This document shows positions 1 to 33,400 of a stretch of DNA of 44,219 nt, one piece after another. A model generated the notes under the pieces. The model saw only the letters and a program-made list of their open reading frames with translations. It had not been told where the DNA came from and searched no databases. Source of the DNA: Bryobacteraceae bacterium (GTDB taxonomy: Bacteria; Acidobacteriota; Terriglobia; Bryobacterales; Bryobacteraceae). The position numbers were made by a program, and so were the translations under genes. The stretch is from contig JASIAM010000293.1 in assembly GCA_030041985.1 (NCBI GenBank), forward strand, positions 1 through 44,219, given 5' to 3'. The first letter of the stretch is position 1, and every line of letters starts with the position of its first letter.

Positions 1-27
1 CCGGATTCCCTGAAGTAGCCGCGGCGA

Positions 28-33
28 TATAAT
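28..33 (+). promoter_or_regulatory. Putative -10 box (TATAAT) before the sigma-factor remnant
   Basis: A perfect TATAAT sits 24 bases before the ATG at 58 and would start transcription near position 40. No convincing -35 box is visible, partly because the window begins at 1. The spacing suits an ATG at 58 better than the longer open frame that begins with GTG at 40. Confidence 0.4.
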
Positions 34-39
34 CAGGCG

Positions 40-1492
40 GTGCGAATCGAGCGGGCAATGGTTGGCGAGCTGAAGAGGAACGAGATAAGCCGGCTCCTCC
101 GCGCCTGGAGCAATGGAGATGCGAGCGCGCTCGACGGCCTGACGCCGATTGTGCACGGCGAGCTTCGCCACCTGGCTCACCACTACATGGCACGCGAGCG
201 CCCCGGCCACACCGTGCAGACCACTGCGCTGGTGAATGAAGCCTACATGCGTCTGGTGGACTACAAGCGCGTGAAGTGGCAGGATCGGGCGCATTTCTTT
301 GCGGTTGCGGCACAGGTCATGCAGCGAATATTGGTCGACCATGCCCGCAGCCACAACGTGAAACGGGGCGCCGGCATAAAGCACGTCACCCTCGATGATG
401 CCGCCGTCGTGAGCGCCGATCGTACCGGTGATCTGGCCGCTCTCGATGACGCCATGGATCGCTTGGCCCGCCTCGATCCGCGTAAGGTGCAAATCATCGA
501 GATGCGTTTCTTTGGCGGACTCAGCTTTTTCATCACGGTAAATTATCAGCAACAGTTCACCGGAAACCTGGAAGAAGCAGAGCGTGCCGCGGAGTTGTGG
601 AGCGCGACTTATCCGCGCGACCTGGACGCCTATACAATGCTTTCGTGGATTGATCAGAATCTCGGCAAATACGAGAAATCGGCCGCCGCTGCGAAACGAG
701 CGGTGGAGATGAACCCCGGTTTTCCTCCGGGCCCAACGAACCTCGCATGGGCCTATTTGTTCCTCGAGCGTTATGCGGATGCGGAAAGAACCGTTCAGCA
801 GGCCGCCGAACGCCAGCTCAGCGTTCCCGACCTTATCCTCTTGCCGTACGTTCTCGCGTTTTATAAAAGCGACCAGCGGGAAATGGAGCACGCCGCCGCT
901 CGCGCACGGGACAACCCGGAATCCGCGGACTGGATGGCGAACACGGAGGGAGTGGTTCTGGCCTGGTCCGGTCACTTACAACAAGCCAGAACGATGACGC
1001 GCCGCGCCGGCAGTATGGAGCGGCAAGCACACCAGCCGGAAAGAGCGGCCATGTATGAAGCCGGATACGTTCGTCAAGTTTACGTATCTCCCGATTCTCC
1101 GGGCACTGGCGGCGCTCAGCCGGGACGATTCGCCGGCCGCGATGGAACAACTGCAGGCCGCGGCGCTGTACGATCTCGCCATACCAGGAAGTTGGTTTGC
1201 GTTCTTCGGAAACATGTACGCGCCCTTTGTGCGTGGACAAGCCGATTTGAGCGCTCATCGTCATCGCCAAGCTGTTGCCGAGTTCCAGAAGATCCTAGAC
1301 CATCCGGGAATTGTTTTCGCCGACCCAGTGCGCCCAGCGGCACACTTACAACTGGCACGCGCCCTCGCGGCGGCGGGCGACAGGATGAAGGCAAAAACTG
1401 CTTATCAGGATTTTTTCACCCTCTGGAAAGACGCTGATTCCGGCATCCCCCTGCTGAAGCAAGCCAAAACAGAATACCTGAAATTGAACTAG
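40..1492 (+). pseudogene. Chimeric remnant: sigma factor 5' end fused to the TPR end of a kinase-type protein
   Basis: The first part (about 58-527) encodes an ECF-like sigma factor of the acidobacterial type: region 2 with NEAYMRLVDY and RAHFFAVAAQVMQRILVDHA, then the start of region 4 (DPRKVQIIEMRFFGGLS). The helix-turn-helix that should follow is absent. The frame instead enters a TPR segment (FTGNLEEAERAAELW, TYPRDLDAYTML) of the kind found at the C-terminus of acidobacterial Ser/Thr kinases. Near 1056 the frame breaks: the first frame runs into unrelated residues, while the family sequence resumes one frame over (TFVKFTYLPILRAL) and ends at 1492 (LKQAKTEYLKLN). I infer two deletions: one removed sigma region 4.2 and the kinase domain, the second an internal TPR block. 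The sigma part can no longer recognise a -35 box. Start at 58 or 40 is uncertain. Confidence 0.75.
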
Positions 1493-30162: not shown

Positions 30163-30258
30163 TTCGGCCCTGATTTCGGTGTCATCCCTGTAAAGCTGCA
30201 TCAGTTGTGGTCTAATCAGTAAGACCATGGGACGCGCAGTGATCGCTCTGGTCTTCCT
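30163..30258 (+). repeat. Duplicated promoter/start region, copy A (truncated gene start)
   Basis: This segment repeats 31718-31847. From 30178 on, 81 bases match 79 bases with few differences, and the first 14 bases (TTCGGCCCTGATTT) match again upstream, with about 34 bases missing here. It includes an ATG at 30227 and the first 10-11 codons (MGRAVIALVFLP) of the gene that is whole at 31816. After that the frame runs into unrelated sequence, so the copy is a dead start. Confidence 0.8.
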
Positions 30259-30324
30259 ACCGATTTACCAATTCCTGCTGCTCAACCAAGACACTGTTTC
30301 GAGGCAACCAGGGCCACAGACATG

Positions 30325-30377: not shown

Positions 30378-31115
30378 CTATTTTCGAAAGCGGGAGGCAC
30401 TCCCGGCGACAAAACGATGTCTCGAGGTCAGGAATGCAGCGATTACGAGCAAAGTCAGGCCGACCGACGAAAAAGAAGACGGCTCCGGCGTGCTCACCGC
30501 GGCTGGTATCAGAGATACGTCATCGATAAAAGCGCTGACGTCCCCCGTGCTCGTAAGGAGACCTTCGAGTGTTAGCGAATGAATACCGGCAGTGGCGCTA
30601 AAATCGAGAGTTTCCTGAGTCCAGCCGCCAGACAATCCACTGTAAGTGCCTCCCGGGAGCACGGAGTTGTCTAACAGTACAGAAACGGTCTGCGGCCCGT
30701 TGTTCCCTGCAGGAGCACTGCGGTTGGCGGCATAGAAGGTCAGGGTGTATGTGCCAGTTGTGGGGATGTCGATGGACTGAGTTGCCGTGGGAGTGACCTC
30801 ATTAAAATAAGTCTGAAGGATTAGAGCATTGGTGGCGCCTCCCGGGTCGGGTTGAGGAATTCCAAAACTAACCCCGAAAACTCCTATAGTGCGATCGTCG
30901 CCGATTTGATACTTGCCGGTCCAGTCGGCTGCGGAGCAGGCCCCGTACGGGTATACAGCCGTGTACGTCGTACAGATCTGGTTGGTTGTCAACGAGGGAG
31001 TAACGTCAGAGAAATCCCCGTTGGTGATTAGATCCGCCTTTACCAGAGGCGCAAGCGTGAGCAGAGCGAACAGGGCAAGCGCAGGTCCCGAGGCAGAAAT
31101 TTTCGTTACGTCCAT
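30378..31115 (-). CDS. PEP-CTERM sorting-signal protein
   Basis: A protein of 245 residues with a signal peptide (LALFALLTLAPLVKA) and a beta-sandwich body (DLITNGDFSDVTPSLTTN, STGDVSAFIDDVSLIPA). The C-terminus is the exosortase signal: STPEPSSFSSVG, then the hydrophobic LTLLVIAAFLTS, then RHRF. Such proteins are cut by exosortase and released or attached at the cell surface. No exosortase gene is in the window. The ATG at 31115 has AGAGGAAA upstream. The gene lies between the two copies of the duplicated start region. Confidence 0.88.
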   Translation of the reverse strand: MDVTKISASGPALALFALLTLAPLVKADLITNGDFSDVTPSLTTNQICTTYTAVYPYGACSAADWTGKYQIGDDRTIGVFGVSFGIPQPDPGGATNALILQTYFNEVTPTATQSIDIPTTGTYTLTFYAANRSAPAGNNGPQTVSVLLDNSVLPGGTYSGLSGGWTQETLDFSATAGIHSLTLEGLLTSTGDVSAFIDDVSLIPAAVSTPEPSSFSSVGLTLLVIAAFLTSRHRFVAGSASRFRK

Positions 31116-31717: not shown

Positions 31718-31847
31718 TTCGGCCCCGATTTACACGACTGGCGTAGTCTATTGGTGGATCATCGATCCGGTGTCACCCCTGTAAAGCTGCGAGTTGTGGT
31801 CTAATCAGTAAGACCATGGGACGCGCAGTGATCGCTCTGGTCTTCCT
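31718..31847 (+). repeat. Duplicated promoter/start region, copy B (with the intact gene)
   Basis: The longer copy of the duplicated segment (130 bases against 96). It leads into the intact gene at 31816 and so is the likely parent. The two copies bracket about 1.5 kb holding the PEP-CTERM gene and the transposase remnant. Confidence 0.8.
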
Positions 31848-32625
31848 GCCAGCCACTTTGGCGATGCCGCTGGCCGCACAGTGGGTGCATTACCCGACCG
31901 CGGGTGTCCCGAAAACTGCCTCTGGCGCGCCTGACCTCAACGCACCTGCCCCCCGCGCAGCCAATGGCAAACCCGATCTTTCCGGCATCTGGGCGCCCGA
32001 GAAGAATCGGCCCTGTCCGCCCCAAGGCTGCGATGACATGGAGATCCCTTACGAATTCCTCGATATCGGCTGGTCGCTCCAGGGCGGCCTGCCGTATCAG
32101 CCGTGGGCCGCGGCCCTGGTCAAGCAGCGCAAGGCGGAAGCCGGTATCAATGACCCCACGACCCACTGCCTTCCGGGAGGCGTGGTCAAAATGTATACCA
32201 CTCCGCTGCTTCACAAAATCGTCCAGACACCCAGCCTGATCCTGATGCTCACCGAGCGCGATGCAGCCTATCGTCAAATTTTCACCGATGGCCGCCCCCT
32301 CCCTGACGATCCGCAGCCTTCCTGGAATGGCTATTCCACCGGGCATTGGGACGGCGACACGCTGGTCGTCGCAACCAACGGCTTTCGCGATGGCCTCTGG
32401 CTTGATCGCAACGGCAGCCCCATGACCGATGCCGCCAAAATGACCGAACGCTTCCACCGGGTCAACTTTGGCAAGCTGGAAGTGGAAATCACCGTGGATG
32501 ACCCCAAGGCTTACACCAAGCCCTGGACTGTCAAGCTCAACCAGCTCATTGTGCTCGATACGGAGTTGCTCGATTACATTTGCCTGGAGAACGAGAAGGA
32601 CTTGCGCCACTTTGGGACGAAGTAG
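31816..32625 (+). CDS. Exported acidobacterial protein with GKPDLSGIW motif, unknown function
   Basis: A protein of 269 residues with a signal peptide (VIALVFLPATLAMPLAAQ). It contains GKPDLSGIWAPEK (about residues 51-63), a segment found in a large family of acidobacterial secreted proteins, and GYSTGHWDGDTLVVATNGF, RFHRVNFGKLEVEITVDD. The family is typically called hypothetical. The TAG stop lies 14 bases inside the start of the next gene, so the two may be cotranslated. The ATG at 31816 is shared with the dead copy at 30227. Confidence 0.8.
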   Translation: MGRAVIALVFLPATLAMPLAAQWVHYPTAGVPKTASGAPDLNAPAPRAANGKPDLSGIWAPEKNRPCPPQGCDDMEIPYEFLDIGWSLQGGLPYQPWAAALVKQRKAEAGINDPTTHCLPGGVVKMYTTPLLHKIVQTPSLILMLTERDAAYRQIFTDGRPLPDDPQPSWNGYSTGHWDGDTLVVATNGFRDGLWLDRNGSPMTDAAKMTERFHRVNFGKLEVEITVDDPKAYTKPWTVKLNQLIVLDTELLDYICLENEKDLRHFGTK

Positions 32626-33400
32626 GATCCTCACGCTGGCCGCTGCACTCGCGTGTCTCGCCCTTCCCATACGGGCGTCCATCTTCATCGTGGCGATCTG
32701 CAAAGATGGGATCGTCGCCGTTGCGGACTCCCGTTTTACATTCGCAGACAGCGATACTGGCCGCGCGCTTGCCTACGCGGATGGCCTTGAGAAAATCATC
32801 CATCTTCCCTCCGCGCTGCTGGCGGAAACCGGCCAGGAATTCATCTCCGGCGTACGGTTCGATCGCTTTTTGGCGGCGTTCTCCGATGCTTCCGGCTCTT
32901 TGCCCGCGGAACAGGTGCTTCCGTCGCTCCTCGAATATGGCAGCCGACGGCTTTCCGCGGAGGATTTTCAGGTGCTCGAACGGCAGCATCTGGCAGCCGC
33001 CAAATTCCGCGGTGGGCTCCCTGTCGTCTGCGGCTATGACGGCAGATTCCGTCCCTGTGTAAACCAGGGCTACGTGCAGAGTTCGCCCACGGATTTTGAG
33101 GCGCTCACTAACAAATTGCCGGCGATGACCGCGCTCGAAACAGCCCAATCAGCACGCGCCAGCATGCAACGCTATATCGCGGCTACTGGCAAATCGGCAA
33201 TCATGGGCGGCGAATTTTCAGCGGCGTTATTAACCCCCGCCGGTATTCGCGATCTCTGGCGGCTGCAGCACCCGATTTCCGCTCGTACACTCGACGAACT
33301 GATCTCGCTCGTAGCCGCGCATCGGATCCCGGTCACTCTTATTCCGCCGGCCAGGCGGAGCGATCTCGACGAGTTGCTGCACTCAGGCGCGGGGAACTAG
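32612..33400 (+). CDS. Exported proteasome-fold (Ntn-hydrolase-like) protein with Ser at position 1 of the predicted mature chain
   Basis: A protein of 262 residues from TTG 32612. Residues 1-22 form a signal peptide (RILTLAAALACLALPIRA). Cutting after Ala22 gives a chain starting SIFIVAICKDGIVAVADSR. Aligned with proteasome beta subunits, Ser is residue 1, DSR falls at 17-19 as in the enzymes, and Lys in EKIIHL matches Lys33 after a six-residue insertion. GLPVVCGYDGRFRPCVNQGY resembles the beta-subunit strand before the ligand pocket. Thr is normal at position 1; Ser occurs in some Ntn hydrolases. It overlaps the previous gene by 14 bases. GAAGGA lies 12 bases before the TTG, rather far. A lipobox at Cys15 is a weak alternative. 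Confidence 0.65.
   Translation: MGRSRILTLAAALACLALPIRASIFIVAICKDGIVAVADSRFTFADSDTGRALAYADGLEKIIHLPSALLAETGQEFISGVRFDRFLAAFSDASGSLPAEQVLPSLLEYGSRRLSAEDFQVLERQHLAAAKFRGGLPVVCGYDGRFRPCVNQGYVQSSPTDFEALTNKLPAMTALETAQSARASMQRYIAATGKSAIMGGEFSAALLTPAGIRDLWRLQHPISARTLDELISLVAAHRIPVTLIPPARRSDLDELLHSGAGN

Follow-up and report, generated by a model that had tools for sequence, protein, structure and literature searches.

A putatively exported proteasome-like protein of a Bryobacteraceae bacterium whose N-terminal serine may be uncovered by signal peptidase

Results

The locus encodes a conserved 262-residue protein

The window, by which we mean the whole stretch of 44,219 nucleotides analysed here (contig JASIAM010000293.1), carries on its forward strand a reading frame with a TTG start for a 262-residue protein (Table 1). 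Its translation opens LGRSRILTLAAALACLALPIRA↓SIFIVAICKDGIVAVADSR..., the arrow marking the predicted cut between Ala22 and Ser23. A protein from the same genus (the congener, G002), read from an ATG start, is 62–64% identical to the window protein, and over 235 codons the two genes differ at 65, 47 and 143 first, second and third codon positions; on these two grounds we regard the gene as real. With a dN of 0.28 and a dS of 3.6 (saturated), it is under purifying selection against its congener.

The start of the gene overlaps the end of the preceding one by 14 bases, as the preliminary description had noted. When the window was compared with 14.7 kb around the congener gene, DNA likeness was confined to positions 31876–33353 (68.7%); the neighbour and the enzyme gene are shared as a pair, and the surrounding DNA differs. 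The neighbour's product had no Pfam match over the cut-off and no NCBIfam match. Because its family has 93 matches in the window genome (and 152 in G074), the neighbour says little about function and was set aside as a clue to it.

Further upstream, two stretches that are 96–98% alike and lie 1.59 kb apart (30177–30261 and 31768–31850) are copies of the first codons of the gene at 31816 together with the sequence before them. They flank an opposite-strand gene (30378–31115), whose product we take to be a PEP-CTERM protein, and the paired copies read as a duplication or insertion scar. Beside the related genes L008 and L007, described below, lie what we presume to be a VKOR–DsbA fusion (L008, 2320–3225, minus strand) and a secreted M64-type peptidase (L007, 3–1244, plus strand) respectively; another gene next to L008 (37–867, minus strand) seems to belong to the 31816 family.

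Table 1. Features at the locus (positions in the window; residues after the predicted cut are numbered from Ser23 as residue 1).
Feature	Position	Strand	Details and basis
Preceding gene, read as exported; very large paralogous family	31816..32625	+	ORF, genome matches
Possible ribosome-binding site AGAAGG	32594..32599	+	12 bases 5′ of the TTG start; sequence reading
Gene for the exported proteasome-like protein (predicted)	32612..33400	+	262 aa, TTG start, stop included; relatives, fold
Predicted signal peptide, residues 1–22 of the precursor	32612..32677	+	n-region Arg3/Arg5, hydrophobic stretch, c-region Pro-Ile-Arg-Ala; hydropathy, cut scores
Predicted signal peptidase I cut Ala22↓Ser23; Ser23 is residue 1, presumed nucleophile	32675..32680	+	Cut scores
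Asp17 equivalent, first of Asp17-Ser18-Arg19	32726..32728	+	Invariant 6/6
Lys39, candidate equivalent of proteasome Lys33	32792..32794	+	Invariant 6/6
Gly52, candidate equivalent of oxyanion-hole Gly47	32831..32833	+	Alignment, invariant 6/6
Cys118, possible disulfide with Cys127	33029..33031	+	Invariant 6/6
Cys127, second Cys of the invariant pair	33056..33058	+	Invariant 6/6
C-terminal Gly-Gly 177–178, opens late core strand	33206..33211	+	Aligned with the GG of proteasome beta chains

A predicted signal peptide ends directly before Ser23

The precursor has the predicted hallmarks of Sec-dependent export and signal peptidase I cleavage, namely a positive n-region, a hydrophobic core and a (−3,−1) site. 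Its hydrophobic stretch scored 2.6–2.7 in the window and congener proteins, compared with −0.41 to −1.52 for six 12-residue N-terminal segments of HslV taken as controls, and the 30 leaders scored from the phylum were all hydrophobic (1.74–3.42). Cut sites were scored with simplified (−3,−1) weights, which is a motif test distinct from SignalP. By this test both proteins have just one site scoring at least 3 past the hydrophobic stretch and up to residue 1, namely the one directly before residue 1 (Ala22↓Ser23 in the window protein). The motif reads Ile-Arg-Ala↓Ser in the window protein, where Ile at −3 is permitted though not optimal, and Ala-Asn-Ala↓Ser with Pro at −4 in the congener. Weaker or earlier candidates, e.g. 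ALA↓C and CLA↓L, fall within the window protein's hydrophobic stretch. A lipoprotein reading was ruled out, since ALAC lacks Leu, Val or Ile at −3 and the congener has LYC. The window protein has a signal-peptide-like N-terminus and seems to be exported; the preliminary description had proposed an exported protein whose cut exposes Ser, and the best-scoring site beyond the hydrophobic stretch agrees with it.

Relatives form a small near clade

The near clade comprises six proteins, those of the window and its congener and those of G058, G074, G113 and G124, which belong to another family of the same class. It was found in two of 237 genomes of the window's own family (a third match, L072, is treated below), in four of 11 genomes of the other family and in five of 399 sampled genomes of the class, four weaker matches having been dropped. 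A single-protein search of a genome-contig collection returned no relative; the six-protein search returned five loci, four already in the set and one an archaeal proteasome subunit. No match was obtained when two relatives were compared with plasmids by tblastn. Rows excluded from the clade were L011 and L012 (stop codons in the matched frame), L009 and L010 (relatives without a leader), L021 and L023 (without a leader), and L022 and L024.

Structure prediction gives a proteasome-type Ntn fold

With the six sequences as input, AlphaFold2 gave one confident model of five for the window protein in its mature form (pTM 0.70, mean pLDDT 69.9; the others had mean pLDDT of 54–39). For the mature protein of G124, from the sister clade, the result was similar (pTM 0.75, pLDDT 73.6, again one model of five, the others at 40–34). 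A Foldseek search of the PDB with the window model returned 444 matches at E ≤ 0.001, with a best E of 2.5e-7, and the best 50 of the 444 were all proteasome or Anbu entries. In VIA the best row had a Z of 16.8 and an rmsd of 3.4 over 170 aligned residues (model 1..196 to chain 2..195), and several rows, including Anbu 5lox and 5nyw, ran from residue 1 to residue 1; the sister protein matched a human 20S chain (Z 19.3, rmsd 3.0, 173 aligned, 1..189 to 1..191). These ranges give the first and last residues only, and families absent from the VIA lists may still be relatives. The agreement at residue 1 is only partly independent, because we had chosen that residue as the start of the models. The core fold with flanking helices of the proteasome-like family (PMC8665760) is thereby seen in one moderately confident model of five, with two long helices at 61–72 and 77–91. 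The window protein is predicted to have a proteasome-type Ntn fold, the fold that the preliminary description had expected of a structure prediction.

Sequence profiles pointed the same way once relatives were pooled. The six-protein profile, compared with the PDB, placed proteasome beta chains at the top (E 0.0084, 3–186 to 3–190). The window protein by itself matched nothing in Pfam or NCBIfam, staying below the PF00227 cut-off of 22.4 bits, and phmmer against the PDB returned for it only chance matches to annexin and DXS. One relative had Pfam Proteasome at E 0.0012, under the cut-off; PF00227 scores were 18.9 bits for L008, 19.9 for L072 and 22.2 for L020, and the distant L010 passed at 26.6. 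By hhalign the window family had no similarity to 20 HslV proteins of the phylum (probability 0.2%) or to nine proteins that we take from their sequence to be Anbu-like (3.5%, a C-terminal stretch only). The window genome itself presumably encodes one HslV (C301) and one Anbu (C259), as judged by motif.

Candidate catalytic residues stand in proteasome register

Counted from Ser23 as residue 1, Asp17 lies exactly 16 residues on, and Asp17-Ser18-Arg19 carry their proteasome numbers, as the preliminary description had proposed. An alignment of the mature forms shows Asp17, Ser18, Arg19, Lys39 and Gly52 unchanged across the six proteins of the near clade, two of which have Ser as residue 1 and four Thr. 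The earlier expectation of Ser or Thr in relatives is thus borne out in all five near relatives, and in the wider ones below. The preliminary description had also named a Lys33 equivalent. An invariant Lys is indeed present, and it sits at 39 rather than 33 because of an insertion. The Thr1/Ser1–Asp17–Lys33 triad of the family (PMC8665760) can thereby be traced, Ser1 and Asp17 by spacing and the Lys at 39. By contrast, the reading of CGYDGRF as the proteasome GYD strand did not hold: the family alignment and the HMMER alignment to a proteasome beta chain put that strand at LAAAKFRGG, and CGYDGRF follows one strand later.

The ungapped Ser1 register was obtained only when mature forms were aligned. 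MAFFT on the full-length proteins introduced a gap that set Ile24 opposite the Thr1 of relatives; since this breaks the register, we rely for it on residue spacing, on the structure and on the larger collection of relatives. No placement was obtained for Ser129. The candidate Asp166 position, four residues before the C-terminal GG, is Asp in all four sister proteins and Ser in both Ser-type congeners. We considered that Asp166 had been lost once self-cleavage became superfluous, and dropped the idea since only one of 19 other Gly(−1) proteins listed (L144) has Asp at this spacing.

All six near-clade proteins also share a Cys pair (118/127; 109/119), and the four Thr-type proteins have an extra C-terminal pair. 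Cys pairs fit an oxidizing compartment, but they are weak evidence of export, because the cytosolic HslV and Anbu also keep Cys (Cys159 in 20/20 HslV and Cys3 in 9/9 Anbu proteins).

A wider group of proteasome-like proteins in Acidobacteriota

L072, a distant match in the window's own family (E 2.9e-4), was itself matched in 18 of 399 class genomes, and a profile of 15 such proteins (A5) had matches in 15 of 396 genomes of the phylum; some matches of both searches were later dropped. In A5, Asp17, Cys32, Lys33 and Gly47 (20S numbers in the first sequence) are invariant in 15/15 and Thr1 is present in 14/15; Lys stands at 33 or is aligned to it in all 15, and each of the 15 has a Cys at 31–37 and another near the C-terminus. 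The best PDB matches of A5 were proteasome beta chains (E 0.0022), and three of its 15 members reached PF00227 at E ≤ 0.1 (best 0.0072). Comparison of the window clade with the wider group by hhalign gave 95.7%, confined to 54 C-terminal columns; with this and the L072 match at E 2.9e-4, the link between the two is thin in sequence.

We placed 33 proteasome-like proteins of the phylum in one register, set by eye, in which Thr occupies position 1 in 28 proteins and Ser in five. A mechanical motif search recovered Thr or Ser 16 residues before Asp in 31 of the 33, missing L143 and L144. Rows dropped from the wider group were L126 (a TPR-like protein), L122/L128 (one N-broken gene, whose start is also Gly↓Thr), L134, L137, L138 and L141 (without a leader), L139 and L142 (other proteins), and L129, L145 and L146 (repeats of counted genes). 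L132, L133 and L144, which have no clear leader or start, stayed outside the leader scoring.

Several observations describe the make-up of this set. A hydrophobic leader followed by Gly↓Thr or Gly↓Ser was seen in L072, L110–L121, L123, L124, L127, L136, L020 and others, the A5 subset having the C-terminal Cys. L132 and L144, both from G650, are Thr1-group relatives with Gly↓Thr and no hydrophobic leader in frame, and are possibly cytosolic members. In L125 (G136) a proteasome-like Gly↓Ser start continues in frame into another reading, presumably that of an integrase or recombinase, which marks a truncated or fused gene.

Two arrangements before residue 1

Across the 33 proteins residue −1 is Gly in 26, Ala in six and Gln in one. 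The Ala(−1) proteins are those of the window and G002, with Ser1, and L130, L131, L140 and L143, with Thr1. All six have the (−3,−1) motif exactly at residue 1, with scores of 3.05–6.11, whereas none of the 26 Gly proteins scores above 0.25 there. Part of this contrast follows from the weights themselves, under which a site with Gly at −1 reaches 2.92 at most. The part of it that is free of the weighting is residue −3, which is of an allowed kind in 6/6 Ala(−1) and 7/26 Gly(−1) proteins (one-sided p 0.002, uncorrected for relatedness). As a background, sites of at least 3 occurred at 57 of 660 other positions.

Most Gly proteins have a different layout. Among the 24 scored, 15 have a site of at least 3 located 1–22 residues upstream and separated by a spacer from Gly↓Thr or Gly↓Ser, and nine have no such upstream site by these weights. 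In 20S beta subunits self-cleavage occurs at the bond to Gly(−1) (PMC4792962). By analogy, a signal-peptidase site, a spacer and Gly↓Thr are the layout that would be expected for self-cleavage in these relatives.

In L130, L131, L140 and L143 an A-x-A-like signal-peptidase motif ends immediately before Thr1, which repeats the arrangement of the window protein with Thr; past the hydrophobic stretch these four have one to three further sites of at least 3 besides that at residue 1.

In a tree of 40 rows (L125, fused or truncated, was omitted, and the tree label 'Gly' includes L133, which has Gln), the window and G002 proteins form one branch (support 100/99) beside the four sister proteins, which read Gly-Gly↓Thr (92/88). 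The remaining Ala proteins, four in number, fall elsewhere, in a weakly supported group, and the strongly supported branches require at least two changes of Ala type, whether gains or losses. The deep branches are long and weak, so export or the Ala type may have had one origin or several; two gains would be the simpler reading. The stem of the window protein and L002 is itself long, at 1.76 changes per column. The six Ala proteins come from two parts of the tree, and the proposed maturation by signal peptidase looks recurrent. That signal peptidase takes the place of self-cleavage, as had been suggested for the window protein, is supported by the contrast between Gly(−1) and Ala(−1) plus motif among its relatives.

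Discussion

A proposed route to an N-terminal nucleophile

We consider it probable that the product is an exported Ntn hydrolase (or acyl transferase) of the proteasome-beta kind, and that signal peptidase I exposes its N-terminal Ser. Computation supplied the predicted fold, the register, the signal-peptide-like N-terminus, the position of the cut motif and the conservation; the cut itself, catalysis, substrate and oligomeric state are inferred. The Sec pathway would move the precursor over the inner membrane, and the cut after Ala22 would free both the alpha-amino group and the hydroxyl of Ser23 in one step, making a propeptide and self-cleavage dispensable. With Lys39 (in the role of Lys33) and Asp17 to activate it and Gly52 close to the oxyanion hole, Ser1 would then attack an amide or peptide bond to give an acyl-enzyme that water (or an amine) resolves. 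Peptides outside the cytoplasm are the most likely substrate. The ancestor of the branch probably self-cleaved at Gly-Gly↓Thr, as the sister clade still appears to, and in the window lineage Gly↓Thr would have been replaced by Ala↓Ser together with a signal-peptidase motif. Ser should be able to act as the nucleophile, because in the 20S proteasome a T1S mutant, in which one activity is down by 40–45%, keeps much activity and its Ser1 reacts with inhibitors (PMC4792962).

Catalysis is the step on which the most serious alternative turns, that of an exported proteasome-fold protein with a binding or structural role, in which Ser23 merely follows an ordinary signal-peptide cut. Ser in place of Thr, the long stem of 1.76 changes per column and the lack of any protein-family match would suit such a protein, as would the Ser that both congeners have at the Asp166 spacing. 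Ala at 166 blocks both autolysis and catalysis in the archaeal 20S proteasome (PMC4792962), so little or no activity is a possibility for the window protein. Yet Ser1, Asp17, Ser18, Arg19, Lys39 and Gly52 are all kept between window and congener, the last five of them in all six near-clade proteins, and dN is well under dS; we therefore regard loss of catalysis as unlikely.

The place and nature of the first cut allow two other readings. Signal peptidase could cut upstream and the protein then cleave itself before Ser23, as happens in 20S beta subunits and, probably, in the relatives with Gly↓Thr. Gly at −1 in 26 of the 33 wider relatives and the upstream sites in 15 of 24 give this some appeal, and candidate sites do lie within the window protein's hydrophobic stretch; but past that stretch neither the window protein nor its congener has another site of at least 3, both lack a spacer, and both have Ala rather than Gly at −1, which leaves the two-step route improbable. 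Alternatively, the hydrophobic N-terminus might be an uncleaved membrane anchor and the apparent cut coincidental. Some N-termini in the sister clade are short (17–18 residues, with starts as we set them), and L006–L008 have no site of at least 3. Against an anchor stand the congener's Ala-Asn-Ala↓Ser with Pro at −4 and the coincidence of the motif with residue 1 in six proteins from two parts of the tree, at a background of 57/660, and we give it very little credence. A direct cut by signal peptidase before a catalytic Ser23 is the reading that we retain.

Relation to known Ntn enzymes

Proteasome-type enzymes are regarded as cytosolic, with Thr1 freed by self-cleavage or by removal of Met. 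The window protein resembles 20S beta subunits (PF00227) in its predicted fold, in the Thr1/Ser1–Asp17–Ser18–Arg19 register and in its candidate Lys and Gly equivalents; it differs in its signal peptide, in Ser for Thr, and in having no Gly(−1), no propeptide and no Pfam match. Where 20S beta propeptides end in Gly(−1) and are removed by Gly↓Thr autolysis, the window protein has Ala(−1) directly before Ser1, with no spacer. It is also akin to HslV and Anbu, the bacterial proteasome-like proteins encoded by single genes. Both are cytosolic, and the six HslV segments that we scored have no hydrophobic N-terminus, unlike the window protein.

The preliminary description held that a periplasmic, single-chain Ntn-type enzyme would be unusual. 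As a statement on periplasmic Ntn enzymes at large this is too broad, since penicillin acylase and gamma-glutamyl transpeptidase are well-known examples; what stands is that exported proteasome-like ones were not found described in the literature searched. The window protein shares with these two enzymes export and an N-terminal nucleophile. They become two chains by autoproteolysis inside a longer precursor, whereas in the window protein the signal-peptide cut itself would make the nucleophile. In the literature searched we found no precedent among penicillin V acylases and bile salt hydrolases for a nucleophile exposed by signal peptidase.

Closer comparisons come from the prokaryotic relatives of the proteasome. 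Connectase, a monomeric member of the family that is not a protease, lacks helices H1 and H2 (PMC8665760), whereas the window model has long helices there (61–72 and 77–91). Fuchs, Alva and Lupas (2021; PMC8665760) described 22 further proteasome-like families, distant relatives with the same core and triad whose first residue is written Thr1/Ser1, and reported propeptides in proteasome beta and HslV and not in other members. Signal peptide, periplasm, secreted, extracellular and Acidobacter are terms that do not occur in the main text of that paper; the window group is set apart from the 22 families by this main-text description only and may equal one of them. More generally, the openly accessible literature that we searched described neither proteasome homologues with a signal peptide or in the periplasm nor proteasome-like proteins in Acidobacteria.

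Implications

If the proposed route is correct, signal peptidase would make the active site, and activation would be coupled to export instead of assembly. The window protein would also be a natural Ser1 homologue of the proteasome, which is of interest because proteasomes are said to use Thr strictly (PMC4792962). The proposal makes a clear prediction, namely the N-terminal residue of the exported protein.

Judging from the relatives in Acidobacteriota, exported cousins of the proteasome may form a group that is little known. Tentatively, and with rather less assurance than for the window protein itself, we propose that Acidobacteriota have a broad group of exported proteasome-like enzymes, undescribed in the literature searched, that mature by two routes: self-cleavage at a Gly↓Thr that follows a signal peptide and a short pro-segment, or exposure of Thr1 or Ser1 by signal peptidase itself. 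The latter route may have arisen repeatedly, accompanied in the genus of the window by a change from Thr to Ser, and the enzymes may act outside the cytoplasm as peptide hydrolases or ligases without an ATPase. If so, the finding directs attention to extracytoplasmic proteolysis, so far unexplored, in a major phylum of the soil.
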